The position numbers and the translations under genes are program-made. Positions 29,867 to 49,687 of a stretch of 64,000 bases of DNA are shown piece by piece. Within the stretch, counting starts at the first letter, position 1; every line of letters begins with the position of its first letter. Source of the stretch: Melastoma dodecandrum (lineage: Eukaryota; Streptophyta; Magnoliopsida; Myrtales; Melastomataceae); the NCBI GenBank assembly GCA_029817715.1, contig JARUPY010000534.1:188501-252500 (forward strand), read 5' to 3'. Under the pieces are notes generated by a model. The model saw only the letters and a program-made list of their open reading frames with translations, did no database searches and was not told the origin of the DNA.

Positions 29867-29952
29867 GCACGGCCAAACCACAATTGATATCCATCAATAT
29901 CAACACTTCATGAAACATTCCCCCAACCCACAATTTCCCAGTCCCATCGATC

Positions 29953-30432
29953 ATGTCTCTGATTCCCAGCTTTTTCGGCGGCCGGAGGAGCGGCGGCAGC
30001 AGCAACGTCTTCGATCCCTTCTCCCTTGACCTCTTCGATCCCTTCAAGGACTTCCCCATCTCTTCCTCATCCGACTTCTTCCGCGACAACACCGCCTTCG
30101 TTGGCACTCGCATCGACTGGAAGGAGACCCCCGAGGCTCACGTCTTCAAGGCCGACCTCCCTGGAATGCGCAGGAACGAGGTTAAGGTCGAGATCGAGGA
30201 CGATCGGGTTCTTCAGATCAGCGGGGAGAGGAACGTCCAGAAAGAGGACAAGACCGACACCTGGCACAGGGTCGAGAGGAGCAGCGGCAAGTTCCTTAGG
30301 AGGTTCAGGCTCCCTGAGAACGTCAGGATGGAGGAGGTCAAGGCTCAGATGCAGGACGGCGTGCTGACGGTTACAGTGCCCAAGGTGAAGGAGAAGAAGC
30401 GGGCCGTCAAGGCCATACAGATATCTGGTTGA
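29953..30432 (+). CDS. Class I cytosolic small heat-shock protein (HSP20)
   Basis: Intronless, 159 residues, starting [10 protein letters not shown] as cytosolic class I proteins do. The variable N-terminal arm (to ~48) includes [15 protein letters not shown]. The alpha-crystallin domain (~50-142) begins [20 protein letters not shown] and includes the beta-strand block [17 protein letters not shown] and the GVLTVTVPK strand. The short tail contains a class I-type IxI-like IQI near the end. It is an ATP-independent chaperone that forms oligomers and holds unfolding proteins. A TATA box and a heat-shock element upstream predict strong heat induction. Confidence 0.95.
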
Positions 30433-31136
30433 GACTTGGCTTCTTGCCGAGGGTTCCCCTGTTTCGCTGTTTTAGTGCTTGCCAGCAATGTGCCTGAGTC
30501 AGTGTTCTGCGGAACTTTAGGGTTTTGTGTTTCTGTGCCTAAAAGTGTGTGTGTGTGTGTGTGTGAGATGCGAGTCCTGTCGTTGCTGGAGTCGCCGTTA
30601 GTTGCCTGTCTTCCTCTGTAAAAAGAAAATGGAATCTTGGTTTTATGGAGATATAAACTGACCGAGTCTTGTGTCATTAATCGATATTAACTACCCATCT
30701 TCTGCAATCTCCATCTTCACAAGTGCATTCTGGGAGCTCGATTTGCCAAATGATAGCAGTTTTGCTGTCTCCATCTGTCTCAACACAAATGATTCCAAAA
30801 TGCATGATTTCTCCCGTACTTCACAGACAATGTTTCTGCAGATTTTGCTGTTCATCCTTGCACAGATATAGAGAATCGTGAACATGCCACAATCCAGGTT
30901 GGTCCTTAATTTGATTTCCTATTTTTATATCGCTCGTGCAAAAGTGCTAACTTTCTTGACGCTTCTGCTTTTTATATCCTCCTTTTCTCCTTTAACAATG
31001 TCCCCATCAGGATCTATTTTTCTCAAAATTGGTTTTTGTGGAGTGTTTAGACGCTCTAATTTGTCCAAAGCTACCTTGCTTTCTCTCAGTCTTATTGTCA
31101 AATGCTTGCACTACAGAGAGAGGAACAGAAGAGTGA
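30433..31136. other. HSP 3' UTR and intergenic DNA
   Basis: Contains a (GT)n microsatellite at about 30545-30564 and AT-rich DNA. No gene seen. Confidence 0.45.
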
Positions 31137-32350
31137 ATGGCTAAGCAAGAACGAGGCGGCAATGGCAGACTGCTGCTGGTCCTGGGTCCCTTTCAAGGTC
31201 AGCTCACTCCTCTGCTTCAACTGGATGCCACCCTCCATTCAAGGGGTTTCTCCATCATGATGTTTCGCAGTCACACACAATTCAACAGCCTGGATCATTC
31301 GGCCCATCCCGACTTTGGCTTCATCTGCTCGAACGATGACGTGTCGGGGAACGATCGCCGCTCAGGGAATTTGATGGGGGGCCGATCAAACTCAATGCAA
31401 GATGCTGTGAAGTCTAGTTTTCAGAAGGTTTAAGCAGTTATTTTGGAAAACGAGGGGCATGGTCAAGATGTCAAAGGCATCATCTGTCTTTGATCCCATC
31501 ATGTACTACACTGAAGCGGTCGCTCACCATCTGAACATTCCCAGATTTTCTCTCATCACAAATAGTGCTGCAGCTTCTTTAGCTCGCTCCATCCTCCCCC
31601 AGCTAGAATCTCAAGGGTTGATTCCTTTGCCCGGAATGTTCATTCACTTTGATTAAGCGCTTACTTCAGATTCGCTGTTTCTCTTTTCAGAATCAGGTGC
31701 TGATTGATGGTTGCTTATTCTAAAAGTGGGGATTCCCCACTTTGTGGAATCTAAAATTTGTCTCACTTTTCACGATTAGCATCTTATTCTTGTGCATCGA
31801 ATTCATTTTTCTTTGTGGATCTATTGATTTATTAGATTCCATAAAGCAGGACAAGGCACTCCGAAGACTTCAGCAATCTCTTGCGGCTAATCCAGCTTAC
31901 AGTTAACATGAGGACTTCCCACATTATGTAAGGGTTCCTATTAACCACGAGCTTAATGGAAGAGGATGAAAGCTGCATGTCTTGGCTCGACAAGCAAAAG
32001 CATAACTCAGTAATCTATATCTGCTTGGGAAGCGTGGCATCCATGACCTCCAAGCAAATGGAAGGCCGTTCTTGTGGGCGATCAGTGCATCCATTCCAGG
32101 ATCGAAATGGATCGAGTTAAGCGACAGAGTTCAAAAAACTGTCAAGGTTACGTTGTGAAAGGCAACGCCGAGGAAAGTACTGGCTCACAGAGCAGTGGGG
32201 GGCCGGGGGGGTTGTTTTTGGAGCCATTTTGGGCAGAATTCGACCCAGAGGTGGTCGGAAGCATGGTGTTTGGGAAGGCGGCGGTGCAGGCATTGGAGGA
32301 GAAAACCACGGACCCCCTCGGCCCATATGCGTCGACTGAACTCTTAAAAA
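31137..32350 (+). pseudogene. UDP-glycosyltransferase pseudogene (UGT76-like)
   Basis: Plus-strand pieces match a family-1 glycosyltransferase in order: GRLLLVLGPFQGQLTPLLQL with FSIMMFRSHTQFN (31140-31300), a stop at 31431-31433, VFDPIMYYTEAVAHHLNIPRF (about 31486-31545), then [25 protein letters not shown] and WIELSDRVQ remnants (about 31965-32130) and VLAHRAVGG with FWSHFG (about 32175-32240), part of the PSPG UDP-sugar box. Several frameshifts and stops and a deletion in the acceptor domain separate them, so no enzyme can be made. The SLGS and DKQ motifs suggest the UGT76 group. Confidence 0.82.
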
Positions 32351-32761
32351 TTCAAAAGGAAGGCAGCCCGATACACCACGCTTGGGCAAAACCCAGCAAT
32401 CCGGAGACGGAGACGAGGGACCAAATCAATCAGGCCAGACTGACTGTTTTCACGTGAGTTGTCCATAAATATGGCCTCGATTGATACCCAAGACAACAAT
32501 TATATATATATTCCCAATTTCAATTAAAGATTTTAATTTTTTTTTAAATTAAAATTTTGGTCCGTCCGTCAATTCCATGTTAAAAAAATCCCAACTCCTC
32601 CTGAGGTTTGGTTGGCCACCGCCCGTTTACTTTTTTTCTCAGATCAATTTTTCTGATTTCTTGGCTGCCGATTCCGCTCTTTGTTAAAAATTACGGATTG
32701 GGATTCCATATTTTGGGAATTGACTTTAGGGTTAGCTGGATCGCTCTCTGTTGCAGGAGTT
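32351..32761. other. Intergenic, promoter and leader of RABA2 gene
   Basis: AT-rich DNA with a TATATATATA stretch near 32504-32512 and poly-T/A tracts near 32538-32550. No gene seen. Confidence 0.4.
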
Positions 32762-34264
32762 ATGGCAAGGGTTGGAGATCACGAGTACGACTACCTTTTT
32801 AAGATCGTCTTGATCGGGGATTCCGGCGTCGGCAAATCCAATATTCTCTCTCGTTTTACCAGGGACGAGTTCTGCCTCGAATCCAAGTCCACTATCGGCG
32901 TCGAATTCGCCACCAGGACCCTTCAGGTTTTTGGGATTCTGGGACATAATTGTCATCTGCTTCCCCGTTTGAGCGTTTGACCACTTTTTTTTTTTTTTTT
33001 TGCTTCTCGTTGAATTTGCTTGTCATGTGATGATGTTCTTTCTGATTAGGCTGGGATACTTCTTGATTTGTCTTATGACCATTAGATGCCTGGGATGCTT
33101 GAGTTTGTGTTGTTAATGGAAAAACTGGAATTAGCCATTCCGTTTCCTCGTTGGGAACATTTAGTAAATGAACACATGATTCGAAATTTTGTTTGAAATG
33201 TGATCGTCGTATAAGAAAGAGTAAAATAACATAATGCTTAATCAGAGAATATATTTACAAAAAGCCGTGGATGTTGCAGAGTATACTCAGAGAAAACATC
33301 AAAGCAAAAAACAACAGACTAAGAATAAGGTGGCAGCCCAATTAGTGTGATTGTGTTGATGAGTTGATGTTAATTTTCAGACCGAAAAATGTCTGCTTTT
33401 AGAGGCATATTCTGATTAGGATTTGGTCAAGACTGCAATACCTATCATGTTTCTCTGTCTTTTTCGGTTGCCTCACTTTATTGGTGATTCTTCTTGCAAC
33501 GCGGGCCGGCCCCTACTCCAGTTTGTTTATGACTTAGTGGGCATATATAGCTCGAGCGTTTTGTTCTTCAAAAATTTTCTAATCAGCATGTATCATCCGA
33601 TGAATATTTACAAACTAAAAAAGCTTTGTTATCTGAGGTGTTCGTGCTGCCGAGTAATTGGTCCACGGTAATCTTCTTGAACAATCATCAGGGATCTGTA
33701 GTAATCTTGAGAGATTGTCATTTTCTAACTTGGTACTTATATCTGATTATCATTAGGACAAGCATATATCTTTTGCAGGTCGAGGGAAAGACGATAAAGG
33801 CACAGATATGGGATACTGCTGGTCAAGAACGCTACAGGGCCATCACCAGTGCTTACTACAGGGGAGCAGTGGGTGCACTCCTTGTCTACGACATAACCAA
33901 GAGGCAGACCTTTGACAATGTCCAGAGATGGCTTCGTGAGCTGAGGGACCATGCGGACTCTAACATCGTGCTCATGATGGCCGGCAATAAGTCTGACTTG
34001 AACCATCTGAGGGCAGTGCAAGAAGGGGATGGGCAGGCATTGGCCGAAAGGGAGGGCCTTTCGTTCCTGGAGACTTCCGCGCTGGATGCCACAAATGTGG
34101 AGAAAGCATTTCAGACTATTCTGGGGGAGATATATTACATCACCAGCAAGAAGGCATTGGCTGCACAGCAAGCAGCCGCTACCAGTCTGCCCGTCCAAGG
34201 TACGACAATAAACGTTTCTGATTCATCAGGGTTTGCAAACAGCCGAGGCTGTTGCTCTACTTGA
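32762..34264 (+). CDS. Rab GTPase, RABA2 (Rab11) type
   Basis: Two exons, 32762-32926 and 33779-34264, joined in phase 0 through an 852-bp intron, give 216 residues. G-motifs: P-loop GDSGVGKS (19-26), effector region [15 protein letters not shown] (66-71), NKSD (125-128) and ETSA. The C-terminus ends CCST, a double-cysteine motif for geranylgeranylation. [20 protein letters not shown] and the [14 protein letters not shown] block point to RABA2, which works at the trans-Golgi network/early endosome and the growing cell plate. The split after Gln55 is the usual position for plant RabA genes. Confidence 0.93.
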
Positions 34265-35315
34265 TGTCTAGAAATGCCGGGGGGTGTTGTTATGTCTAGC
34301 ATGATGGAGGTAGTGTGCAGTCTTTGAATTTTCATTTGAGGTTATGAAAAAGGAACCTGGGGAGTGGAACTAGATTTTTAACCATCAATTTGGTTGTACA
34401 CTTTGCGATCATCTCTGGTTTGATACAGCGATGTGGGAACTGACAGGAGACTTTTTGTCTTTCTGGAGTATTCCAAGTTTTGTATCTATGCAAATTACAG
34501 GTGACCTCCTCCATATGGAATGCAAGGTTATCTTTCTTTCTTTTTTTTTTTTTTTTTTTGGGGTCCTAAGCAGTGTCCAAATGTCTGTTTTTGGTAGTCC
34601 CAAATAAATAAGGTGAGGGCATACCAAAAACAGCTGTATAATAATAAAGATTGACAAACAACGAATCAAGGGGGAAAGGAAACATTGGCTTGTACAAAAA
34701 CGATGAGCAATGTCTGGAGATGAGATGACACCATCATCTGTGGTGTCACATACAGAGAAGGGGGACATTGTCCTTGTGATTGGTATGCTTATGAAAGATT
34801 TGTTTTGGGTTTTTTTTGACCCCGAGATTACTAAAAATATGGGTGGTCGTCGTACTCGTTAGGACATTGAATTCGATTGGACCAACAAGAGATGAGGAAA
34901 ATGCGATGGGTGTTGGGATTTTGAAAATTCAAACACGGCGTCCGCCTCCTCTCCCATTTTCGTTTTTTTCTTTTACCATTATATATCCAGTCAATAACGA
35001 CGACTATAAAAAAAAAAAAAACGCGCTCCTCCTTTTTAAGCAGCAAAAGTAAAACATCCAAAAACGATGACATAATCCATAAAAAAAGCCTCCTAAAAAC
35101 CCAATACAAAACCTTCGTCCGGATCCAATCATTAGAGGCCACGTGGACACCAATCAACGCGTCCCCTGCTGAAATTTAAACACGACTCTTCCTTCCTTGT
35201 TCCCTTCGCCTCTTTTAATCACATTTCATCCGCGCCTCTTATCATTTTCCTCTAATTTCTCTCAGATCTCTAGTAGACCTTCATTCCTTCCCTCTTCAAG
35301 GGGAGAGGGGGGAAT
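34265..35315. other. RABA2 3' UTR and RING E3 promoter/leader
   Basis: Includes T-tracts (about 34540-34558), AT-rich DNA and a C/T-rich leader before 35316. No gene seen. Confidence 0.45.
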
Positions 35316-36341
35316 ATGCCTTCCGGATCTACCACCGGCGCCTTCTGGTGCTACAGATGCACCCGCTTCGTCTCTCCCTTGTCCCACGAGGGTGACGACT
35401 CCCTCTCCTGCCCTCGCTGCAGTGGCGGCTTCATCGAACACATCGACTCTCATGCCTTCCCTCCTTCACGACTCCTCCCCCCTTACTCTCCCACCCACCG
35501 TCCCCGCCTCCGCAGGATGCCCGCCGGGGCTACTACCTCCAATTACAACCCGGTCGTTGTCCTCCGTGGTCCCACGACGGCCACGGATACCGTGTCTGAA
35601 TCCCAGAACGCTTACGAGTTCTTCTACGATGATGGTTCCGGCTCGGGCCTACAGCCGTTGCCGTCGACCATGTCCGAGTTCCTGCTTGGTTCTGGGTTTG
35701 ATAGGTTGCTGGAGCAGCTGGCTCAGCTAGAGCTGGCAGGGTTCAGCCGGCCCGAGAATCCGCCGGCTTCTAAAGCGGCAGTGGAGTCAATGCCCAGGGT
35801 TGCCATTGGTTCGGACCACCTGCTTGCCGAGCTCCACTGCGCGGTGTGCAAGGAACAGTTTGAGCTGCGCGATGAGGCGAGAGAGATGCCGTGCAAGCAC
35901 ATGTACCATCAGGGATGTATCCTTCCGTGGCTGGCGACGAGGAACTCATGCCCGGTTTGCAGGCACGAGCTGCCCACAGAAGCGAACGAGAACGCGGAAG
36001 GGGCAGTGGGGATGACGATATGGAGGCTGCCGGGGGGAGGGTTCGCAGTGGGGAGGTTCAGGAGGGAGAGGGAGAGGGAGAGGGAGACGCCGCAACCGGC
36101 GGTGTACACGGAGGTGGAGGGGGTTTTGGGAGGGGAGAGCGGGGAGTGGGGGACGAGGTCATCGAGAGGGAACAGCGAAAGGGGAAGTGGTGGGTTTGGG
36201 AGTATGATGAGGAACTTCCTTGGGTTCCTGAGGGGATCGGAGGGGAGGAGGTTCCGGCGTAGTCAAAGTAGTTCGGGTTCGGTGATAGGCCGGCACGTCA
36301 GGCGGCGGGGGAACGGGACTTTTTTGGTCATGGATGACTAA
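35316..36341 (+). CDS. RING-H2 E3 ubiquitin ligase with N-terminal zinc ribbon (RDUF type)
   Basis: Intronless, 341 residues. The N-terminal zinc ribbon has Cys12/Cys15 (FWCYRC) and Cys32/Cys35 (CPRC). The RING-H2 domain spans about 175-215, with the ligand order C-x2-C ... C-x-H-x2-H ... C-x2-C visible in CAVC, MPCKHMYHQGC and CPVCR. The C-terminal basic Ser/Gly/Arg region has a DUF1117-like start (VGMTIWRLPGGGFAVGRFRR) and a reiterated RERERERE stretch. Such ligases (AtRDUF1/2, RING1-like) add ubiquitin to targets in stress and ABA responses. Target unknown. The stop lies ~450 bp from the retrotransposon insertion. Confidence 0.92.
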   Translation: MPSGSTTGAFWCYRCTRFVSPLSHEGDDSLSCPRCSGGFIEHIDSHAFPPSRLLPPYSPTHRPRLRRMPAGATTSNYNPVVVLRGPTTATDTVSESQNAYEFFYDDGSGSGLQPLPSTMSEFLLGSGFDRLLEQLAQLELAGFSRPENPPASKAAVESMPRVAIGSDHLLAELHCAVCKEQFELRDEAREMPCKHMYHQGCILPWLATRNSCPVCRHELPTEANENAEGAVGMTIWRLPGGGFAVGRFRRERERERETPQPAVYTEVEGVLGGESGEWGTRSSRGNSERGSGGFGSMMRNFLGFLRGSEGRRFRRSQSSSGSVIGRHVRRRGNGTFLVMDD

Positions 36342-36792: not shown

Positions 36793-36797
36793 GACGG
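36793..36797. repeat. Target-site duplication, left copy (GACGG)
   Basis: GACGG immediately precedes the TG of the left LTR and is repeated directly after the CA of the right LTR (49683-49687). Confidence 0.93.
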
Positions 36798-37822
36798 TGT
36801 TCGCGCACGAAACGGATCGCGTTGGAAATATTTGGCAAAGGACTCACAGTAGTTATATTGTGGTCGCCAGTAAGAAGATGCACTAATTTATACAGAAATA
36901 ATGCAAGTCTTACAATCTTTAGAGAATTAAAAGAAAAGGGCTTACAGCCATTAAAAGGGAAAAAGGGAAACGGTGGTGACGATGCGGGATCTTGTAGCGG
37001 CGGAAAACGCGTGACGAAGGCCTTGGAAGCTCGTTTCGTCGGAGGTGGTCGCTGGCGGAAGGTCGTGACGAAGGCCTTGGAAGCTCGCTTCGTCGGATGT
37101 GGTCGCTGGCGGAGAGTTGTGACGAATGCCCTACGAGCTCACTTCGTCGGTGGAGTTGCTGGCGAAGGATTGACGGCAAAGGCCCTACGAGCTCACTCTG
37201 TCGGTGGAAGGGTAGTTGACCTATAAACCGGGTCAGGGCATCTAATTCCTAAGGTTGACGAACAAACTTCAGAGTTTTGGCTGTGTATGGTCGTGCTTTT
37301 TCTTGAAAAATTCCTCTGCTATTTATAGAGGACTTGTACGTGTTTAACACGTAACAGATAGATCGTGTTATAGATCGTGATCCCTAATGTCGTGGGAGTG
37401 TCTCAACAACCCCCTTGATATATGGGATCACGTTCCTGGATATTTAAGATCAGTTACGATCCTTAACAAACGTGATTGAAAATGAATAAATTTATTTCAA
37501 CTTCGTCGACTTGACTGATCTGTACGGACTGCGATCGACTTGGTCGACTTTATCCAGGATTCCATCGACTTGACCCTACTAGTAGACCTAGCTACTGTTG
37601 AGTCATCTTGATTGGCTTTGATCATCATATTCCTTCATCGTGAGTCGACCTAGTCGACCCCGTTTATAAGTCGATCTAATCGACTTCGTCATAAATCGAC
37701 CTAGTCGATTTCGTCGTGAGTTGGCCTAGACGACTACATCTTGGGCCGACTTGGAGTGTGACTTGAGGGATTACTGGGTTTCTGTTCTAAAACCAGGCCC
37801 AAAATTAATTGACATGTCAACA
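36798..37822 (-). repeat. 3' LTR (left copy)
   Basis: Begins TGTTCGCGCACGAAACGG and ends GACATGTCAACA on the plus strand. Compared with the right copy it has 9 extra bases in a GTCGACC repeat and lacks one base near 37290. It contains a ~53-bp tandem repeat (37011-37215) and a GTCGAC-rich cluster (37498-37745). Confidence 0.95.
37011..37215. repeat. ~53-bp tandem repeat inside LTR, about four units
   Basis: Units begin GTGACGAAGGCCTTGGAAGC or a variant and run through TTCGTCGGAGGTGGTCGCTGGCGG. The first two units are nearly identical; the third and fourth diverge (CCTACGAGCTCACTTCGTCGG). The same array is in the other LTR at about 48879-49077. Confidence 0.85.
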
Positions 37823-37824
37823 TA

Positions 37825-37836
37825 AGCCCCCCTTTT
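37825..37836 (-). promoter_or_regulatory. Polypurine tract
   Basis: On the minus strand AAAAGGGGGG lies four bases before the LTR start, the expected site for plus-strand DNA priming. This confirms the element's minus orientation. Confidence 0.85.
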
Positions 37837-37876
37837 ATGCTGGGTTGGCTATGCCGACTCAGCAGAAATCATACCC

Positions 37877-37884
37877 TATATAAA
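37877..37884 (+). promoter_or_regulatory. TATA box for the antisense PMD gene
   Basis: TATATAAA lies 137 bp upstream of the PMD start codon, outside the LTR and on the opposite strand to gag-pol. Nothing in gag-pol needs it, so it is read as the cargo gene's own core promoter. Confidence 0.65.
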
Positions 37885-38020
37885 GGAGGGTCATCGTCCT
37901 TTTCCCGCACTTTTCTTCCTTGCTCAACACTTCTCCATCTTCTCCAAGAAATCAGAAACCCTCGCTTCCTAGAAAAACTCTTCGTCTCCCTCCTCAAAAA
38001 CTCTTCCGATCCTTAAAAAG

Positions 38021-41000
38021 ATGTCGACTTTTAAGGCTTTCGAGCTCTATAATCTGCGTGCGGGGCCAACCGGACCCGTTCCGGTCGCAGAGGATCAGGG
38101 ATCGGGCGTCACTCTCGGACTTATCCTGCCGGAGCATTTTTTCCCGGGGACGGTGCCGCTCAACTACCTCGTCACTGAGAAGCCCATTCCGATTTGCCAT
38201 CCCAACTTCGTCGATCCCCTCAACTGGGAAGGTCAGGGATCCTTCATGTGTTTTCCTTCTGCATCTAAATCTGAGATGGTGGAATGGCTCGAGATGTGGG
38301 AGGAGCACTTCGCAGAGAGGTTTAGGAGTCAGAAAATCTTGAGGTTCTTCAGAATGTCCGTGGCAGACAAGAACTGTGATCCTAGGGTTTGCTCGGCCAT
38401 GCTGCCTTTCTGGAATTCTGCTGTCAATTGCTTCTATTTCCCGGAGGGTCCCATGTCTGTTACATTGGCAGATGTGAAGATTTTGACCAGGTGCAAAGTC
38501 AATAGTCTCCCTGTTCGTCAATACTCTCAGGCAGGTGATATTAATCCCAAGGGCGCCCTTCAGTACATGGAGGTGGTAAACAGGCACTTAAAAATGGCCT
38601 CAGCAGGCAGAGAGCCTAATGAGAAGTTGTCGACCGAAGGTTTTGGCGCCCGGGAAGAGGTCGAGTTTCTCAGCATCTGGTTAAGCAAATTTGTTTATTG
38701 CTTCCCTGGGAAGAAGGTCAGCCACACTTCTTATGCAGTGGCCAACTTTCTGAGGGAGGCCAATGAAGAAATCTCTTGGGGCCCCTTCATTTTGGGTCTT
38801 CTTTACCATGATCTGGACAGAGCGACGACTCAGATCAAGCCATTTCCAAAACATCCAGCGGGAGGGTTGCTCTGGTTAGTTCACCTCTGGTCAGCTATGT
38901 GGATGCCAGGATTGACTGGGTTTAAGGGCCCTGCTTCGCCCCTCGAGTCTGTCTATTATGGAGAGACCATCTTGGAGCAGTGCTGCCAGCGGAAGGATCA
39001 ATGGCTGATGACGTCGATCACTGGCCACATGAAGCACATCGTCGACTTCGGCAGAGCAGATCGACGCAACTGGGCACCCTTTCCAGGCGGCAAGACATTT
39101 GCTCAGGAAATTAAGCTTCAAGCTGCTCGTGGCTTCTGGAACGGGGTATTGACCCGCAGGGACCTACCAGTTATCTTTGACGGCTACCTGACCTTTGAAG
39201 CCTATAACCCTCAGCTGTGTGCAAGGCAGTTTGGGTTCATCCAGGGTGTAGCGGTTCCACTTGCCGACCCTACTGGTGGCTTGTGCGGGGACAGGATGAA
39301 GAGAATCGTGTGCAAGCCGATCTCCCCGAAGACCCTCGACTTGCTCAACAGCAAGGCGCAGCTCTCCCAGATAGAATTCCCATCTGGTACTTCCGCCTGT
39401 TTTGCCACACAGTTCTTCACTGTGCTGTGGTCGACTACTTATGAAGAGCTGCGGGCTTTGATGCATTTCTTGGAGGTCTCCAAAGAGCCTGATTTTTACA
39501 TAGGCGACGCGCATATCAAAGCAAAAGGTAAAGACTTAGCTTGATTTTAAAAGTATTGGGTTCTTAGTATTAATCGTGAGCTTTCTCCTTTTCAGGATCA
39601 ATGATGCCTCAGGGCTCTGGAAAATCCAAGCCTAAGGCTCCCCTTGCCCCCGCTCCTTCTAGACTCAAGTCGACTGGCAAGGGGAAAGCTAAGGTGGCGA
39701 GCCCCAGGAAGACAGCTGCAGGTGATCCCTCTAAGGCTCGACCTAAAAACGCTCCAAAGCGCAAGGCGGCCGAGGCAAGAGATCTTGAAGAGATGCCTCT
39801 ATCCCAGAGGAGGAGACTGGTGAAGGTATCATCTTCAGTGGCGGCTCCTCTTCCCAAGTCGCTGACTACCGTAGCGGCGACTTCTTCTTCGAGGTCGCCA
39901 GCAGCGGTGGCTCCATTCAGATCACCAGTAGTGAGTTCATCATCTGCTGCGGTGCCTGCGACCTTAACGACGGCCGACATCACTCGAGGAGCGACTACAG
40001 AGGTATGATTCTACTGATTCTAATTCATCTTGAGCTTCTTTATCTAACCCGCACTATATTGCCTAGGGCGAAGCGTCAACCGGAGGTGGTGACCAACCTA
40101 CTCCGGTTGTGTTCGAGACAGGTGCAACGGCTTCGATCGCCGAGGTGAGCTCGACTCCCTACTAAGATATATCACTCTAGTTCATATATGAACCTTGGTT
40201 TTATTACACTCTACTCTAGGAAGAGCAGGCTCCTGAAGTCTTGCTACAAGAAGGAACCGCTATGGTTTTAGTCGATCCTCCAACTCGGTCGACGCGAGAG
40301 GGGGCACCACCTCAGTCGATGCAAGAGGAGGAGGAACAAGGCGTTCCTTCTTCTTCAGTCCCCACTCCTGCACCACCAATGGTACTTGTTCTTCTCTCAC
40401 ACGGAGCATGGCGTTGTTATCGCGATTCTAACCGCGACACTTCACAGGCTCGTCCGAAGAGAGTGAAGACGACTGCTGGTCACAAGAAGGCTCCTACTCC
40501 CTCCACTTCTTCGGGCGAAAGTCCTGAGGATTTACTACCTTCAGAGGTAAGTATTCGATTGCATGGAGGTGTCGACTTTTCGGGATGTTGTATCTTAGCA
40601 ACATTTCATTTCTTATTCTGCAGGGTCCTGCTGCAGCGACCTCGACTAGCGACCCATGGGTGAAGCTCCACCAGGACATTGAAGAATTCTGCCAACTTCT
40701 GCTCATTGACCCCTTAAGCGTCGACGAGTTTAGGAGGATGCAGAAGCTACTGAAGGAGATCGAGACATCCCCTCGGGTTACGGACGAAATACTGGGGGCC
40801 TGCAAGAGCTTTAGGTCGACGTATTGGACCCGCTGGAGGGATTACTACGCCGACCTGCTCGCCTACGACTCGACCGACTCGAAGATTCAGTCGATCACTG
40901 AAGCTCGAGGGCAGGCCTCTAAAGCTGCACAGGACGCCCGCCAACATTTGGACGATGTGCAAGAGAGGCTGACCGAGGCAGAGAGACAGATAGAGTTGAA

Positions 41001-41073
41001 GGCCAACTCTGAGAAGGATAGAGAAAAGGTCGTCGACCTTTATGCCCAGCGAAACAGAGTGAACGCGAAGTGA
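38021..41073 (+). CDS. Plant mobile domain (PMD, MAIN/MAIL-like) protein gene carried antisense in the retrotransposon
   Basis: Six exons: 38021-39527, 39596-40002, 40067-40144, 40220-40381, 40448-40546 and 40624-41073. All five introns are GT-AG, 64-77 bp, and keep phase, giving 900 residues without a stop. The first ~500 residues resemble the PMD fold: FWNSAVNCFYFPEGPMSVTLADV, EFLSIWLSKFVYCFPGKK, GPFILGLLYHDLDRA and LLWLVHLWSAMWMPGL. Then come a basic Lys/Pro/Ala-rich linker (KSKPKAPLAPAPSR, PKRKAAEARD; likely nuclear), an acidic/Ser-Pro stretch and a C-terminal helical region (about 750-900) with a coiled-coil-like end (DDVQERLTEAERQIELKANS). PMD proteins such as Arabidopsis MAIN and MAIL1 act in TE silencing and genome stability; many others are TE-borne. 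It converges with pol, whose end is ~200 bp away. The role here is unknown. Confidence 0.85.
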
Positions 41074-41271
41074 CGAGCTCGTAAATCCCTTATCCTCGAT
41101 TTCAGAGAAGTTGGCGGGTTATGGAGTCTAGACTTGTAGCCAAAGAACAACGCAATTCGATTATTTTTGCTTTTCTGAACAAATCAAGTATCTTATGTCT
41201 CGAATGAATTTCTGCCCACCACGCTAAATTCATTCTTCCAAACAGCGCTACTGAAGCCTAGCGCGATTTTC

Positions 41272-44200
41272 TTAGGAATTAAGCGCTTCCCAAATTAATG
41301 GAGTCCTTTGTCTTAGGATTTTATGATGAGCTTCCCAGATAGTCGCGCGGTAGGATTTAAGATATTTACCATTGACCTTCAATGGATGCCTATCCCCTTC
41401 TCTGGTCATAAGTCGATACGTATTAGATGAGTATGTCTCGCACACTTCATACGGACCCTCCCAATTAGGAGACCACTTACCCAAGACTTGGTAAGTGGTA
41501 GGATCATCTTCCATACTAAGTCGCCCACTTTGAAGCGCTTATGGACAACCTTTTTATTATAGTAACTAGCAATTCTTTGCTTATGTACTTCGAGTCGGTC
41601 TATTACGTCGAGTCGCTTCTTCTCCAATTCTTCTAAAGCGAGGTACATTGCCTCGTCTTGCAAGTCAGGATGAGCTACCCTGAGCGACTTGTATCGAGTC
41701 TCAATAGGTAGGACAGCATCTTGCCCATATACCAGCGAAAAAGGGGCTTCTCCTGTGCTGTCTCTCTTGGTGACTCTTAGAGCCCACAAGGTGTCCTGCA
41801 ATAGTTCGTGCCATTTTCTTGGATTTGCACCAACCATTTTCTGAATGTTATTCTTTATGAGCTTATTAGTAGCTTCAGCTTGTCCATTCGACTGGGGGTA
41901 ATAAGGTGTCGAATTAGTGATTGAAAAGCTAAACTCAGCAGCGAATTCACGCACCTTCTCATTATTGAAAACGGTGCCATTGTCTACTACGATATTCTGG
42001 GGAATCCCAAATCTATAAATGATGGAGGATCTGATAAAATCGATCACCTCTTTGTGATCAATTTTCTGGTATACTTGAGCTTCGACCCACTTGGTAAAGT
42101 AGTCAGTAGCGACTAGAATGTAGGCATCGCCTTTACTCGAGTGTGGGTGAATCTCCCCGATTATATCTAAAGCCCAAGACCTAAACGGCCAAGGCTTGAT
42201 GACTGAGACTAAATCGGACGCTGGGGCCCTTGTCACCGGACCATGTTTTTGACACTCTTGGCACCCCCTAGCCATTTCTATGCAATTCTTTAGCATTGAT
42301 GGCCAGTAAAAACCATGTCTTTGGATAGTCCAAGACATTTTGGTGCCAGATTGGTGAGACCCGCATAAACCCTGGTGAGTCTCCAACATAATTGGGGTCG
42401 CTTCGTCTAAGTCGACGCTCCTTAGTAGGACCCCTTCTTTGGTCTTTCTGTAAAGTACCTCATCTATAAGGGTGTACGACAAAGCCTGAGTCTTGATTCT
42501 TTGGCTCGCCTTTTGTGTTGGGGCGGAGAGGAAATCGGTGATTGGCCTCCTCCAATCTTCATCGCTTGCCATTATGTCCAGAGTGAACGCGTCGCCTGGG
42601 GGAGCTAGGTGGGAAGCTATTTCTGGGACACAATCGCTTCCTCTTTTGGCTTTGTACCCTGAAGCCTTTTGGGCTAAGTCGTTAGCAATTGTGTTTTCAT
42701 CCCGGCCTACAAAGAGGAAAGAAATTGCTTCAAACCGCCTGACTAGCCTTCGAGCGACTTGATGATAGGATGCGAGTTTCTCTTGACATAGAGAGTCGTC
42801 GTTCATCTGGTTAACAACCAGTTGAGAGTCCCCCATTACTCTGACTTTCCTGGCTCCCAAGGCTAATAATTCCTTCAAGAGCGTGATCAACGCTTCATAC
42901 TCAGTCGCATTGTTTGTATGAGTCGCCGACAAACGATATGCTAGGCGAACGTCCTTTCCTAGTGGCGAAAGTATGTGGAGGCCTATGCCTACGCCGGATT
43001 TCGCCGAAGATCCATCAAACCAAGCTTGCCAGACATCCTCGAGGGATTCCTCTTGATCGATTAATGTAGATGAATCGTGGTTTACTAAGAAGTCGGCTAA
43101 GGCCTGCCCTTTCACCGACTGTTGAGGTTTGAAACGCAGATCGTATGCGGATAGGACCAAGCTCCATTTACTAATTCTTTCGGTCAATAAGGGACTTTCG
43201 AAAAAATATTTTATGACTGGAGACTTGGCAATAACATGAACCTCTTGGGATCCGATATAATGTCTCAGCTTCTTAACAGCATAAAAGACTGACAGGCATA
43301 ACTTCTCCTTAATTGTATAGCGCTTTTCTGTAGCAGTTAGTTGTCTTGACAAATAGTAGACTGCTCTTTCGGTTTTGTCCTCCGCCTCTTGGGCTAACAT
43401 GGCACCGATGACTGATTCAGTCGCTGCCACGTAAAGCAAATAGGGTTTTCCTATCCGAGGAGGGGCAAGCACATGCGGCTTTATTAAGTACTCCTTTAAG
43501 CCTTCAAATGCTTTTTGGTGTTCATCGCTCCACACAAAATTTCCCTTCTCCTTTAGTAAAGTTGAGAAAACTTCTGTCCGTCCAGCGACGTTACCAATAA
43601 ATCGCCTTAGATAGTTGACCCTTCCTAAGAAAGCCTGTAACTGCTTCTTATTACTTTGAGGGTTCAATCTTTGAATGGCATTGACTTTATTCTGGTCGAC
43701 TTCTATGCCACGTTGATGGACTAGGAACCCTAGGAAATGTCCTGCTCTGACTCCGAAGGCACATTTGAAAGGGTTTAGTTTGAGCTGATGCTTTCTCATT
43801 TGAATGAAAGCATTTCTAAGGTCATTAATATGTGATTTCTCATCTTGCGACTTGACCACTATATCATCTATGTATACTTCGACTGTTTTGTTAATCAAGG
43901 CATCAAATATAGCGTTCATGGCTCGTTGGTAGTTGCCTCAGCGTTTTTGAGTCCGAATGGCATGACTACCCATTCGAAAATGCCTAAGGGACACCTAAAC
44001 GCAGTTTTATGGATATCCTCCTCAGCTAGAAAGATTTGGTTATATCCTGAGAAACCATCCATGAAGGACATAATTTGGTGCCCTGCAGTCTTGTCGACTA
44101 AGTCGTCTGCGATAGGCATGGGGTACTCATCCTTTGGAGTGGCACGATTCAAGTCTCTGAAGTCGATGCAAACTCTAATCTTACCATTCTTCTTAATGAC

Positions 44201-45983
44201 GAGTACTATACTGGATATCCATTCGGTGTACCTCGATGTCCTTATATATCCAGCTTTAAAGAGCTTCTTGACTTCCTCGAATACTGCTTGAGTGACTTCA
44301 TGAGTCATTCTCCTCGGCGCCTGTTGGACTGGTTTAAATCCTGTTTTGATTGGTAACTTGTGTTCCACAAGTCGGCGATCTAGGCCAGGCATCTCGGTGT
44401 AATCCCAAGCGAAACAGTCTTTAAACTCTTCTAGAGTAGCTTTGATAGAATTGAAAAGTTCTTTATTTATTGAAGAATTGATGAAAACAATTCGAGGGCT
44501 TGAAGTCTCGCCTAAATTGACACCTACGAGTGAGTCACATGGCATCATCAGTGATTCACGACTCTGGACACCACCTAAATCGGTGTCGACGTTATTACAT
44601 GACCTAGCTTCAAGATTGATGTTGCTTATTTGGCACCCTACTTTCCTAGACATCCTAACATGCTTCTGAAGTCGCTGTAGGATATCAGCGACTGCATGAC
44701 CTTTCTCCTCACTGTCCATACATCCCTTCGTGTAGGAGTCTATCGGGCTCCAACTCCGTCGCAGTGCTCTCTTGGCACTTAGGCGCTTCTCCCTTGTTGC
44801 CGCTTGGGCTGTTGTTCGTCTCGCTTCCAACCTTGGTCGTGACTACCTCCTGCAGGACCTCGTCTATGTCTTTGTCTGTGAAGTCGGGCCCCCATCCTGT
44901 TGGCACAATCGGTCCTTCGTCAGGCTTGGGGTGAGAGGTGCCATAGCTTACGATGAAGTCGAACTTCCTAGAAGGTTGACCTAAGGGTCCGACTGTGGGG
45001 TCTCCCAGCTTCTAGCGCTGGTCCAGAGTAAGGTCCTTGACTGTCTTACACGTCTCTGCATGCAAAATACCCTTGTCACAACAGGAGTCTTCATCAGCCT
45101 TAACGATTTCTATTTCGGAGTCAAGCCATAAGATTAACTCCCTATGCAAAGTAGATGGAATCGCGGCGGCCTTATGAAGCCAATCGCGTCCTAAAAGCGC
45201 ATTAAATGAAGGGGTTATATCGATTACAAAGAAAGCAGTTTCCTGCTCGTGTCTCCCGACGCCTAGGCGCACGGAGCATATGCCCAGGAACTCAGATTTT
45301 CTCCCATTGAAGCCACTTACAGCTACGTCGGTTCGCACCAACTCGCTAGGCTTGTACCCAAGTAATCTAAACTTGGCGAGGGGAAGAACATTGACAGTGG
45401 CGCCATTGTCTATTAAGACTCGACCCACTAAGACACCATCAAAGGTGGCTGAGATATACAGCGAATGCATATGCTGTTTCATGCGATCTGATGGTTTCCT
45501 CAACCAGTGCAGAGGGAAGCCAGAAGGAAATGTAATGACTTTAAAGTCGAGAGTTTTACCTTCCGGTGCCTCCGACTTGTCGTTGCAGGCGAACTCCGCA
45601 GGGAGGGTAAGAGCGTTGCAGCTCACGAGGGGCCCTTGCTCTGCGTTGAAGTCGCAGGGCTTATCTCCTCGTAGAGGAGTGTAGTCGAAGCTCGAGCCTG
45701 GGTCTTCCGAGTAGTCAGTAGACTCGACACGCTCGGGCTCTGCAACTTGTTTCCCTGTGGCGTGGTTCCCGCCAAAGGGTGGCATCACAGGGGTCATTCT
45801 TGGTTTCTTCTGGGCGTGACTTAGACGCCTTTCTTTTCTCTTTTGAGCCCTTACGGGAAGCGTAAGCTTCCTTTCCGCCTTCTGCCATTGAGACGAAGGG
45901 TTAAGTGCTTTGACGAACCTTGGTTTCTTAGAACCAAAAGGGAGTCGACTTACCTCCACAAACCTTCCGTCGGCTGGGTCATA
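41272..45983 (-). pseudogene. pol: Disrupted pol (protease, RT, RNase H, aRNase H, integrase)
   Basis: Order on the minus strand: protease with LIDNGATVNVLPL (~45410); RT from LPIKTGFKPVQQAPRRMTHE through FGLKNAEAT and the active-site YIDDIVV (~43865); RNase H (GAMLAQE); a second archaeal-type RNase H (WFDGSSAKSGVGIGLHIL, NNATEYEALI, MGDSQLVVNQM); integrase zinc region (HQGLCGSHQSG ... CQECQ) and DDE core (WALDIIGEI, VVDNGTVFNN, QSNGQAEATNK); then the GPYEV tail. Lesions: TGA at 45984-45986 before the protease, TAG at 45012-45014, a frameshift between 44709 and 44830, a one-base loss near 43934, and another frameshift near 41505. It cannot make a full polyprotein. Confidence 0.9.
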
Positions 45984-48620
45984 TCATACCTGCACAGGGT
46001 TATCTGCTAGCCTATTCGAAGAGGGCTTGTTAGGGTTCGAATTACCTGAGCCCTCCGGACGGACTGCCTTCACCAGCATCTCCCCTTTTGCGGATAAGTC
46101 GACGAGCCGCATGAAGTAGTTAACGCAGCATGCTGTGCAGAGCTGGGTGATGAGTATGCGGTTGTGAGCGATCAGCTTGCACTTTTGGCACAACAGCTTT
46201 TCGTCCAGGAATTGGGCAATAGGTGGCCCCCTCCGCAGTTCCTGAGGATCAACTGTCTGCGACGCGTAGCGGGGCCTGCGATTCACGGCCTGCTGAGGTT
46301 GGTCCGCTTCCTTATGCTCCTCTACCGGTCTAATCTCCTTGACAGGGGTAGTTCTAGTGTACCCCTGTTTGATAACCCTTTGGCCAGACGAGTCTATGAA
46401 CTCCAGTCGCCGTGCCGGGCGTTCTGTTCCTCGGGCGACTGCCTCTCCATTCCCCTTGTGACCATGGGGGCCTCCTCTTCCTCCTCGCAAGGCTAATCGG
46501 CGATCTGCGCTAGGAGGGCTTTTGTGGGCGTGAGAAGATCCTCGGGGAGTGTTCAGCGACATTGCTGCTTCCTCGAACGGGGTCAAGTCGTACCACCCCT
46601 CCGTCTTGCTGTCCAGTAGGTACTTTTTGAACGTGTGGCACTGATCCGTAGTATGAGTGTCGTTCAAGTGCCAGTGGCATAGCCACTTCTCCCTTCCTTT
46701 GGGCAGAATAAAGACCCCACGCTCAGCCAGTCGCTTCATCAGGGCATTAGCCACCAGAGTCTCGCCGGTTGCTTGTAAGTCCTGCGAGGGTACAGCAGAG
46801 TCGTTAATAACTTCTAAGAGATTAACCTCAGTATCAAATATGTCAAACGTATGAATGGCGACTTCGTCCCCGAATGGATTATCATCCACCACGGCGACTT
46901 CATCGACCTCGGGAAAACGGAGCTCTTTAGACTCTATTAAATCCTGGATGATATTTCTAAAGGACAAACAGTCCTTGGTAGCATGGGTGAAGGACCCATG
47001 CCACTTGCAGTAATTCCTATTCTTTTCCCTCTCTATCTGAGGGACTCGATGGCCGGGCTTAAGCCTAATCCTTTTCCTTTGATAAAGCCAGTCGAATATA
47101 GCGTCGACTTTATCCGTGTCGAAAGAATATTTTCTTTCCTCGGCATTCTTTTGGGATGCCTTAGCTTTGGAATTCTTCTTAGTCAGGGGATCACATATAG
47201 TCGACTCTCCCTTGACGAATTCCGCCACGTCGACTTCATAAGTGTCAACTTGGTAGGCTCGAGTCAGCTGAGCTTCCTCTGTAAGGAGCTGATAATACTC
47301 AGTAGCCCTCCTTGCTAAGTCATACAGGTCAGCAAAGCGCTCGCCCTGCAGCTTTTTCCGAAACGGGATAGTCAGCGCATTTAATGCGAGAAGTAACTGA
47401 TCCTTCTCCGGTATGGGGGGTGTACACCGTAGTAGGGCCTTCCTAAGTTTCATTAGAAACTGCCCTGGGTGTTCTCCGTTAGCCTGTTTAAGGCGCATTA
47501 CTTCAAACATCGACATGGGGGTGTCCAGTCGAGCAAAGGTTTTAACGAACATAGACTGCATCTGAGTCCACGAGGCTACTGACCCTGGCGGCAAACTCGC
47601 ATACCATGTAAAGGCATCTCCTGTTAACGAGTTAGGGAAGAGCTTTAGTTTCCAAAAGTCGTTCCCAGCCGTCTCACCAAGTTGGTGAGTGAAGCGAGCG
47701 ACGTGCTCGAGTGGGGTCATTTCATCTTCACCCGAAAAACGAGTAAAGTCGGGCACCTTATAACCTCTAGGTAAAGGGAAATCCCTGTCGACATATGCAG
47801 GATAGGGAGACCTGTACAAACAGAGATCGTCTCGCCGAGCTATTCCGGGGACGACTTGCTCTATAACCTGAGTTATGGCCTCCCTCAAGTCTGGGGGTAC
47901 ACCGTCTACTGGGACCTGCGCTGGAGGTCGAGTCGACCTTATCGGGCTGTATGGAGATCTTTCCCCCATTGCCTGATTCGCTGGATTCGTCATGTAGAAA
48001 GAAGGCTCCTCCCGAAAGTTTCCACCTCGGGATCCGAGCTCATAGGGGTCTCCAGTCGCGTCGATTACAGGTTCTTTTCCAGGGCGACGAGACGGAATAA
48101 AATCCTCCCCTCGATCCGTTTCCTCTTGAAAATCCTCTGCCTCATTCCAATACGTATTCGTTGGTCGATTACGTGAAGAAGAGGGTCGACCAGGGGGGAA
48201 CAGATTCCCGGGTTCGAAAAGAGTATTCGTCCTTATCTCAGATTGCTCAAAAGTCACGTTACGTGGCCCTTGAGCAGTCCGTCGAGCGTCTGTCATGAAC
48301 GTAGACTCCCTAAAGGGGGCTTCTCTCATATGAGGTCTTACTCTTTCCTCGTTTCTCGGGCCAGAAAGACGCCCTATTAGTGTTTGGACATCTATTAGAA
48401 TATCCTTCATAGTAGTCAACTCCTGACGCACATCTCCCAGTTCCTTGTGGAACTCCAGTCTTGAAATAAATGCAGATGGGGTATGTGAATCAAAGGTGGA
48501 CTGGTTTGTAGCTGCCTGGCCTCCTAGGGCCGGCGCTGGCAAGTCCATTCCTGGAGGAAGTTCCTGATTTTCCCCATCTAAGGGATTCTGAGACTCACGG
48601 CTTCGAGTATTTCTCGGCAT
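45984..48620 (-). CDS. gag: Gag polyprotein of Tat-type retrotransposon
   Basis: Open frame of 878 codons from the ATG at 48618-48620, ~45 bp inside the 5' LTR. The N-terminal third is charged and low in structure. The retrotransposon gag domain follows around residues 270-450 (LEHVARFTHQLGETAGNDFW, DAFTWYASLPPGSVASW, MFEVMRLKQANGEHPGQFL). Two zinc-finger-like modules, YCKWHGSFTHATKDC (~538) and LCHWHLNDTHTTDQC (~648), may bind RNA. It ends at a TGA that is in frame with the protease coding DNA beyond, so it may once have been continuous with pol (Arg CGA to TGA would explain it). Confidence 0.88.
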   Translation of the reverse strand: MPRNTRSRESQNPLDGENQELPPGMDLPAPALGGQAATNQSTFDSHTPSAFISRLEFHKELGDVRQELTTMKDILIDVQTLIGRLSGPRNEERVRPHMREAPFRESTFMTDARRTAQGPRNVTFEQSEIRTNTLFEPGNLFPPGRPSSSRNRPTNTYWNEAEDFQEETDRGEDFIPSRRPGKEPVIDATGDPYELGSRGGNFREEPSFYMTNPANQAMGERSPYSPIRSTRPPAQVPVDGVPPDLREAITQVIEQVVPGIARRDDLCLYRSPYPAYVDRDFPLPRGYKVPDFTRFSGEDEMTPLEHVARFTHQLGETAGNDFWKLKLFPNSLTGDAFTWYASLPPGSVASWTQMQSMFVKTFARLDTPMSMFEVMRLKQANGEHPGQFLMKLRKALLRCTPPIPEKDQLLLALNALTIPFRKKLQGERFADLYDLARRATEYYQLLTEEAQLTRAYQVDTYEVDVAEFVKGESTICDPLTKKNSKAKASQKNAEERKYSFDTDKVDAIFDWLYQRKRIRLKPGHRVPQIEREKNRNYCKWHGSFTHATKDCLSFRNIIQDLIESKELRFPEVDEVAVVDDNPFGDEVAIHTFDIFDTEVNLLEVINDSAVPSQDLQATGETLVANALMKRLAERGVFILPKGREKWLCHWHLNDTHTTDQCHTFKKYLLDSKTEGWYDLTPFEEAAMSLNTPRGSSHAHKSPPSADRRLALRGGRGGPHGHKGNGEAVARGTERPARRLEFIDSSGQRVIKQGYTRTTPVKEIRPVEEHKEADQPQQAVNRRPRYASQTVDPQELRRGPPIAQFLDEKLLCQKCKLIAHNRILITQLCTACCVNYFMRLVDLSAKGEMLVKAVRPEGSGNSNPNKPSSNRLADNPVQV

Positions 48621-48665
48621 TCTTTTTTTTTTCTCAACGTACTCCCACTGTGGTCGCGAAAAACG

Positions 48666-49682
48666 TGTTCGCGCACGAAACGGATTACGTTGGAAATATT
48701 TGGCAAAGGACTCACAGTAGTTATATTGTGGTCGCCAGTAAGAAGATGCACTAATTTATACAGAAATAATGCAAGTCTTACAATCTTTAGAGAATTAAAA
48801 GAAAATGGCTTACAGCCATTAAAGGGGAAAAAGGGAAACGGTGGTGACGATGCGGGATCTTGTAGCGGTGGAGAACGCGTGACGAAGGCCTTGGAAACTC
48901 GTTTCGTCGGAGGTGGTCGCTGGCGGAAGGTCGTGACGAAGGCCTTGGAAGCTCGCTTCGTCGGATGTGGTCGCTGGCGGAGAGTTGTGACGAAGGCCCT
49001 ACGAGCTCACTTCGTCGGTGGAGTTGCTGGCGAAGGATTGACGGCAAAGGCCCTACGAGCTCACTCTGTCGGTGGAAGGATAGTTGACCTATAAACCGGG
49101 TCAGGGTATCTAGTTCCTAAGGTTGACGAACAAACTTCAGAGTTTTGGCTGTGTATGGTCGTGTCTTTATCTTGAAAAATTCATCTGCTATTTATAGAGG
49201 ACTTGTACGTGTTTAACACGTAACAGATAGATCGTGTTATAGATCGTGATCCCTAATATCGTGGGAGTGTCTCAACAACCTCCTTGATATATGGGATAAC
49301 GTTCCTGGATATTTAGGATCAGTTACGATCCTTAACAAACGTGATTGAAAATGAATAAATTTATTTCAACCTTGTCGACTTGACTGATCTGTACGGACTG
49401 CGATCGACTTGGTCGACTTTATCCAGGATTCCGTCGACTTGACCCTACTAGTAGACCTAGCTACTGTTGAGTCATCTTGATTGGCTTTGATCATCATATT
49501 CCTTCATCGTGAGTCGACCCCGTTTATAAGTCGATCTAATCGACTTCGTCATAAATCGACCTAGTCGATTTCGTCGTGAGTTGGCCTAGACGACTACATC
49601 TTGGGCTGACTCGGAGTGTGACTTGAGGGATTACTGGGTTTCTGTTCTAAAACCAGGCACAAAATTAATTGACATGTCAACA
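48666..49682 (-). repeat. 5' LTR (right copy)
   Basis: 1017 bp, same TG...CA ends as the left copy. Serves as the promoter LTR for minus-strand transcription, with TATAAATA at 49189-49196 on the minus strand. The tandem ~53-bp array is at about 48879-49077. Confidence 0.95.
49189..49196 (-). promoter_or_regulatory. LTR TATA box
   Basis: The minus strand reads CTCTATAAATAGCAG, a consensus plant TATA box oriented to drive gag-pol; the same motif is in the left LTR. Confidence 0.7.
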
Positions 49683-49687
49683 GACGG
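49683..49687. repeat. Target-site duplication, right copy (GACGG)
   Basis: Matches 36793-36797 exactly. Confidence 0.93.

Follow-up and report, generated by a model that had tools for sequence, protein, structure and literature searches.

A stretch of 64,000 nucleotides from Melastoma dodecandrum was analysed, here called the window (GenBank assembly GCA_029817715.1, contig JARUPY010000534.1, positions 188,501 to 252,500 of the forward strand). It contains a Tat-type long terminal repeat (LTR) retrotransposon of the Ty3/gypsy group. Between its pol and its 3' LTR, antisense to gag-pol, the element carries a gene with a plant mobile domain (PMD). Very probably, this PMD gene is an accessory gene of a Tat-lineage Ty3/gypsy family and not a recent cargo. 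It belongs to the family at large, not to the window insertion alone. An earlier note on this DNA had described an intact PMD gene of 901 codons, with six exons and five GT-AG introns, antisense inside a dead Tat retrotransposon. The gene model and its location hold. On the plus strand (38021-41073), six exons are joined over five GT-AG introns and encode 900 residues and a stop.

The spliced protein matches the PMD profile PF10536, as the earlier note had proposed to check, with 85.1 bits (E 6.9e-24) against a curated cut-off of 34.9. It is thus a member of the PMD family. Seven Melastoma relatives score 82-96 bits with the same profile. In the protein collection, the nearest relatives come from Melastoma candidum and are annotated as 'hypothetical proteins'. 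One Melastoma candidum protein, P0001 (918 amino acids), aligns full length over the splice junctions, with gaps in a linker visibly rich in lysine and arginine. Its matching pieces on the window are interrupted at the intron borders. This alignment and the retention of GT-AG sites among the family copies (Table 1) are independent support for the splicing model. The introns are 64-77 nt long. Their G+C content is 0.32-0.39 in four of them and 0.50 in intron 4, and the exons have 0.52-0.62 (exon 1 measured from one base late). Retention introduces a stop for four of the five introns, the exception being intron 4. The remaining two forward frames of the coding sequence (CDS) contain 35 and 41 stops. 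Read-through into intron 2 (window 40003-40008) ends immediately in Val-stop, and the Melastoma models P0003 and P0005 end there. Retention of intron 2 could therefore yield a shorter protein.

Wider protein searches with the PMD protein returned Melastoma proteins only (7 and 10), and its occurrence in other plants is known from the literature. Likewise, no relative was found among viral contigs, and no solved structure matched the PMD family profile (E up to 1).

The source genome (373 Mb) was searched with P0001. We scored 46 of 15972 first-look candidates, so the counts are lower bounds. The genome has at least 46 copies. All 46 scored copies match exon 1, and 43 of the 46 exon-6 matches extend to P0001 residue 917 or 918. 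In 35 of these 43, the match has no internal stop (the table of matches reads through stops). For the comparisons below we took 31 copies, namely the window and the best 30 loci by protein match to P0001 (L001 and so on). For 20 of the 30 loci, the downstream sequence was also retrieved. In 18 of them, gag is encoded on the strand opposite to the PMD gene, and the LTR matches a second time at the expected distance.

Eleven of the 31 copies, the window included, are open from the ATG through the part of exon 6 covered. This count transfers the window model by alignment, and misalignment in the variable linker may miscall some copies as broken. Seven copies on seven contigs are nearly identical: over 3171 nt, the 21 pairs differ by 4-20 substitutions and no more than one gap column. 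None has lost any of the five introns. In 7/7, the spliced PMD gene is open over 939 codons and has a longer C-terminal end. Such near-identity across seven contigs speaks for recent copying with the introns. In more distant copies (L002, L008, and L013), introns 2-5 diverge from the window by 0.26-0.39, yet the splice sites are retained.

Upstream of the ATG, a TATA box is conserved (Table 1). It is one base off in four of the 31 copies (L020, L026, L027, and L028). The box is likely to be part of the PMD gene's own promoter. In L022, the TATA segment is tandemly duplicated (32 nt) upstream of the ATG. A bacterial-type promoter scan of the leader, unsuited to plants, gave no result.

We estimated the nonsynonymous to synonymous divergence ratio (dN/dS) by the Nei-Gojobori method, as a descriptive measure. 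The median for exon 1 is 0.133 over the 465 pairs of 31 copies, none excluded. This is the comparison of sibling copies that the earlier note had suggested, and the value is well below 1. The ratio is 0.49 at a synonymous divergence (dS) below 0.04 (9 pairs), 0.138 at dS 0.2-0.3 (187 pairs), and 0.138 at dS 0.3-0.5 (165 pairs). The dS of exon 1 between copies reaches about 0.55. Likewise, gag has a dN/dS of 0.47 at dS<0.05 (14 pairs) and 0.097 at dS 0.3-0.7 (55 pairs). This set comprises 18 copies with the window, leaving out L011 and L018 (no gag) and L019 (short longest piece). For PMD exon 1 in the gag-set copies, the values are 0.49 at dS<0.05 (4 pairs) and 0.153 at dS 0.3-0.7 (39 pairs). 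The low ratio in diverged pairs, with about 0.5 in the closest, therefore points to purifying selection on the PMD gene during the spread of the family and to relaxation or drift after insertion. The earlier idea of a cargo under selection appears to hold family-wide. On the window insertion itself, selection is not demonstrable. Stops are present in PMD exon 1 of 7/18 dated siblings and in gag of 15/18. We draw no inference from this contrast because the copies were selected by PMD score.

By region, dN/dS is 0.110 in the PMD, 0.141 in the N-terminus, 0.182 in the rest of exon 1, 0.501 in exons 2-5, and 0.206 in exon 6. These values consider pairs with dS between 0.1 and 0.7 (401-433 of 465). 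The protein thus combines a PMD module and a C-terminal part that are both conserved, joined by a basic linker under loose constraint. The product of exon 6 is probably helical. The regional values also bear on another explanation, in which the antisense RNA and not the protein is functional. The 3' part of the element would then be transcribed from both strands, and the resulting double-stranded RNA would regulate the element. The TATA box conserved on the opposite strand agrees with it, and the idea was raised in a review of antisense open reading frames (ORFs) (PMC7264820). However, selection acts on the amino acids, as the dN/dS of 0.11 in the PMD part suggests. An RNA role in place of the protein is improbable, and an additional one would be compatible with our reading.

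Contrary to the earlier claim, the window copy is not intact. Its stop (41071-41073) falls 22 codons short of the end of P0001 and 23 short of the end in the seven young copies. An in-frame deletion has removed about 23 residues of P0001 near the C-terminus. Over its roughly 7.5 kb, the window gag-pol has up to four interruptions; the 2.7 kb PMD CDS has one early stop. The stop at the gag/protease border is absent in 14/18 siblings. Three siblings (L003, L014, and L015) close within a few codons of this border, and L006 closes well before it. The Melastoma gag model P0008 ends shortly after the border. Given these three nearby closures and the end of P0008, the border stop may be less than unique to the window. 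The stop after the protease is found in 0/5 siblings, and L060 has its own stop nearby. The break in the reverse transcriptase (RT) frame near 43.93 kb is not present in the three sibling pieces that reach there (L058, L060, and L061). The frame break near the end of the integrase is an observation on the window only. Finally, the frame change from protease to RT is present in 5/5 siblings examined. It is therefore normal for the family, and part of the apparent breakage is not damage. The description of a broken gag-pol is otherwise right.

If five interruptions in total are distributed at a gag-pol to PMD length ratio of 2.77, the probability of one or none in the PMD gene is about 0.6 (our own arithmetic). 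Damage per length is similar in the PMD gene and gag-pol, and the contrast is not significant. The earlier note had considered a dead gag-pol beside an intact PMD gene unlikely under neutral decay. With four interruptions against one, and 11/31 copies open, this argument does not stand. The idea that the window frame is unusually well kept was dropped after the sibling gag-pol comparison and the openness count across the 31 copies.

We also simulated neutral decay since insertion (4000 runs). The PMD gene stayed open and spliceable with a frequency of 0.28 without indels and 0.04 with one indel per ten substitutions, a rate close to that of the LTR pair. At half the divergence, the values were 0.52 without indels and 0.18 with them. 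At 1.5 times the divergence, they were 0.15 and 0.005. A wholly open gene after such decay would be somewhat unusual, but the window copy is not wholly open. It appears to be an ageing, slightly damaged member of its family. So, for the window copy alone, a neutral relic would be an adequate explanation: a frame open by chance since insertion, with a protein without function for the family. The simulated survival and the one early stop agree with this. Nevertheless, a family dN/dS of about 0.13, the retained splice sites, and 7/7 open near-identical copies speak against it. As an account of the family gene, the relic is very improbable.

The same low probability is given to an origin from a DNA transposon, for instance a PMD-bearing MULE, that landed in the element and was incorporated. 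PMD genes are known in MULE elements (PMC5418596). However, there are no flanking inverted repeats of at least 14 nt in 37700-41600 (the one 15-nt pair lies within exon 1), although an ancient event may have lost its ends.

Other PMD genes of the genome give at least 139 matches, up to 335 bits (117 of 2690 candidates scored). Many of these scores are nearly equal, and further repeated PMD families are therefore probable. We compared three of these genes, the top scorer included, with the window protein. Their best local identities are 26, 20, and 25%, the 20% one without a significant E-value. Because these other genes are so distant, a recent host capture seems unlikely, and an old origin would fit the published Gypsy PMD clades. 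The earlier note had offered recent capture as one possibility. In this explanation, the element would have taken up a PMD gene of the host not long ago, and selection would have retained it here for the benefit of the host or as a domesticated cargo. Host-like splicing and a frame open nearly to its end within an element of broken gag-pol would agree with it, but it is scarcely credible with the gene, its place, and its orientation common to the siblings examined, an exon-1 dS as high as given above, identities of 20-26% to the three other PMDs among the at least 139 matches, and a window copy without its C-terminus.

Distances between copies are not always the same in the PMD part as in the rest of the element. 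Between the window and L007 or L008, the gag dS is about 0.10, but the PMD exon-1 dS is 0.31-0.33. More precisely, in 171 pairs of 19 copies, 15 pairs combine gag dS<0.1 with PMD dS>0.25, and none shows the reverse (gag dS>0.25, PMD dS<0.1). Of the remaining pairs, both distances are small in 17 and large in 49, and the other 90 are intermediate. Overall, gag and PMD distances still correlate (Spearman 0.57). Over introns 2-5 and the exons between them, the window is 0.31-0.36 from L008 versus 0.03-0.05 from L026. In the first half of the LTR, the window is closer to L008 (0.060) than to L026 (0.159). In the second half, it is closer to L026 (0.064) than to L008 (0.085). The protease-RT piece of the window is 96-97% identical to both, and the gag of L026 lies outside the gag comparison. 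The simplest reading of these distances would be recombination, with exchange of PMD modules between element backbones. Either part may be the one that moved. Mosaics are seen in L008, L026, L013, and the window (36798-41037), with nearly the same gag and RT and PMD modules up to 36% apart in introns.

Several points weigh against the accessory-gene reading. The PMD gene and its promoter are predicted from DNA sequence. Pairs of copies are not independent, so their dN/dS values are descriptive and not tests. The choice of the best P0001 matches favours well-kept copies and lowers both dN/dS and stop counts. By the transferred window model, 20/31 copies are not open throughout, and splice sites are missing or misaligned at introns 3-5 in some of the 31. 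In L011 and L018, neither gag nor a second LTR is found in the fetched piece, and the LTR match of L001 is 305 bp only. The comparison of the seven near-identical copies is confined to the PMD gene region. Finally, AlphaFold with exon 1 and eight relatives gave a predicted local distance difference test score (pLDDT) of 31.9, no usable model, and no structural hint on function.

If the PMD gene is an accessory gene of the family, it would be transcribed from its own promoter, against gag-pol. Splice sites of an antisense gene would be no splice signals in the genomic RNA that serves reverse transcription. Its antisense orientation would thus let a multi-intron gene be copied with its introns. 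The PMD protein is probably nuclear and would act in trans for the family. Its target would most likely be the transcription or silencing of family copies. That it acts there through a PMD/PP7-like pathway is a tentative last step. An anti-silencing role is a conjecture, and the idea was voiced earlier for MULE-captured PMDs (Ikeda et al. 2017, PMC5418596). In its full form, the family PMD protein would interfere in trans with host PMD silencing of the MAIN/MAIL1/PP7L type. The antisense, intron-bearing layout would permit expression while the genomic RNA is off, and exchanged modules would test versions against the host. We consider this full form unlikely.

The element spans 36798-49682 on the minus strand (12.9 kb). 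Its LTR ends are TG/CA, and the target-site duplication is GACGG. A profile search gives the domain order gag, protease, RT, RNase H, a second RNase H-like domain, and integrase. The LTR pair has 23 substitutions in 1016 aligned sites (Kimura two-parameter distance, K2P, 0.023) and two gap events. If between 1.3e-8 and 7e-9 substitutions per site and year are assumed, the window insertion is about 0.9 to 1.65 million years old. The K2P of the LTRs is 0.003-0.026 across 18 siblings. To the left of the element (29914-36341), ORFs resemble, in our own reading, a small heat-shock protein, a Rab GTPase piece, and a RING protein.

Table 1. Coordinates of the PMD gene and of the element that carries it (window positions).
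Feature	Position	Strand	Basis or remark
Target-site duplication GACGG, left copy	36793..36797	.	sequence at element edge
3' LTR	36798..37822	-	1025 bp, TG...CA; LTR-pair comparison
Polypurine tract (presumed)	37827..37836	-	adjoins 3' LTR, as is usual in LTR elements
TATA box TATATAAA	37877..37884	+	starts 144 nt before PMD gene ATG; exact in 27/31 copies
Exon 1: N-terminus and plant mobile domain (PF10536, residues 110-413)	38021..39527	+	gene model, profile match
Intron 1	39528..39595	+	GT-AG in 31/31 copies
Exon 2: low-complexity basic linker	39596..40002	+	gene model
Intron 2	40003..40066	+	GT-AG in 31/31 copies
Exon 3	40067..40144	+	gene model
Intron 3	40145..40219	+	GT-AG in 26/31 copies
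Exon 4	40220..40381	+	gene model
Intron 4	40382..40447	+	GT-AG in 29/31 copies
Exon 5	40448..40546	+	gene model
Intron 5	40547..40623	+	GT-AG in 29/31 copies
Exon 6: C-terminal part; early end and in-frame deletion in window copy	40624..41073	+	alignment to P0001 and copies
Rest of RT, RNase H, additional RNase H (PF13456), integrase (PF17921, PF00665)	41406..43937	-	broken near 41.5 kb
RT start, frame differs from protease (family feature)	43916..44842	-	ORF and profile match; broken near 43.93 kb
Protease frame (PF13650)	45012..45983	-	ORF and profile match
Gag frame (PF03732)	45984..48755	-	ORF and profile match
Primer binding site	48642..48659	-	complementary to tRNA-Arg(TCG) 3' end; window imperfect
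5' LTR	48666..49682	-	1017 bp; LTR-pair comparison
Target-site duplication GACGG, right copy	49683..49687	.	sequence at element edge

The lineage was judged from these features. Two RNase H domains are present in one frame with the integrase, the additional one before it (RT_RNaseH 163-265, RVT_3 333-425, integrase 512-681). It is the Tat arrangement, with the additional RNase H between RNase H and integrase, as reported for Ogre and Retand (PMC6317226). A tRNA-Arg primer is reported for Ogre (PMC9289625). In our family, the primer binding site fits tRNA-Arg(TCG) perfectly in 17/20 siblings, which are all those where the site was found, and imperfectly in the window. The tRNA 3' end that fits the site occurs at six places in the genome, four of them tRNA-Arg(TCG) by ARAGORN. 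No intron-like gap between protease and RT, an Ogre feature, is found in the window or in 5/5 siblings. The stop-to-stop frames of protease and RT are out of phase, with an overlap of 131 nt both in the window (44710-45011) and in 5/5 siblings (L057-L061). The family would therefore require a frameshift or splicing to produce Pol. Because the two frames overlap without an intron-like gap, we do not assign the element to Ogre with certainty. An antisense ORF between pol and the 3' LTR, as in Retand, is present. On the other hand, the Transposase_28 domain (PF04195) of Retand was not found at E up to 0.1 in window exon 1, at E up to 1 in P0001-P0007, or at E up to 10 in window 40528-41073 and P0014.

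These results have some consequences. Surveys of single frames see mainly the first exon, so existing records may understate both the size and the conservation of accessory proteins in plant retrotransposons. The antisense orientation would be a simple reason for the persistence of a multi-intron gene in an element copied through RNA. The near-identical open copies (7/7) and the many genomic PMD loci make the function of Gypsy PMD genes, and any contact with host PMD silencing, testable.

Among known systems, the closest in layout are Grande gene23, RIRE2, and Retand ORF4 (Vicient and Casacuberta 2020; Vicient 2025). They have the same position and orientation as the gene described here, and the same family-wide retention. 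For Grande gene23, a promoter of its own and a nuclear product are reported (PMC7264820). Here, a conserved TATA box and a linker rich in lysine and arginine are seen in the sequence and may be the counterparts. Antisense ORFs between pol and the 3' LTR are common in Retand, and 97% of Retand clusters encode Transposase_28 there (PMC11963269), in contrast to our element. In the parts of PMC7264820 and PMC11963269 covered here, we found no mention of a five-intron structure of antisense accessory ORFs, and PMC11963269 does not use the word 'intron' in its main text. In the review on such ORFs, authors are encouraged to search for antisense and spliced transcripts (PMC7264820).

The PMD is common to our gene and to MAIN/MAIL1 (PMD-C), which with PP7L are linked to silencing of transposable elements in Arabidopsis (PMC5418596, PMC7156037). 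However, those are host genes, and the likeness is one of domain.

PMD genes in Gypsy elements are the nearest in content. The clades PMD-A1/A2 are exclusively Gypsy (Ikeda et al. 2017, PMC5418596). Extra ORFs (eORFs) with pfam10536 are reported in 57% of Ogre elements (Neumann et al. 2019, PMC6317226), and PMD genes in Gypsy consensus elements of ten species (PMC9289625). The likeness consists of a PMD in a Tat-group Ty3/gypsy element with a tRNA-Arg primer. The difference is that the long PMD frame is here merely exon 1 of a six-exon antisense gene. Because the eORF survey considered single frames of at least 250 codons (PMC6317226), it would record such genes as one exon and miss the short ones. 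In the literature, with main texts covered in part, we found no published description of an antisense PMD gene that has several exons and conserved splice sites. Earlier publications cover PMD genes in Gypsy elements as well as antisense ORFs in Tat elements. The conserved spliced antisense layout and the exchange of PMD modules between backbones look new.

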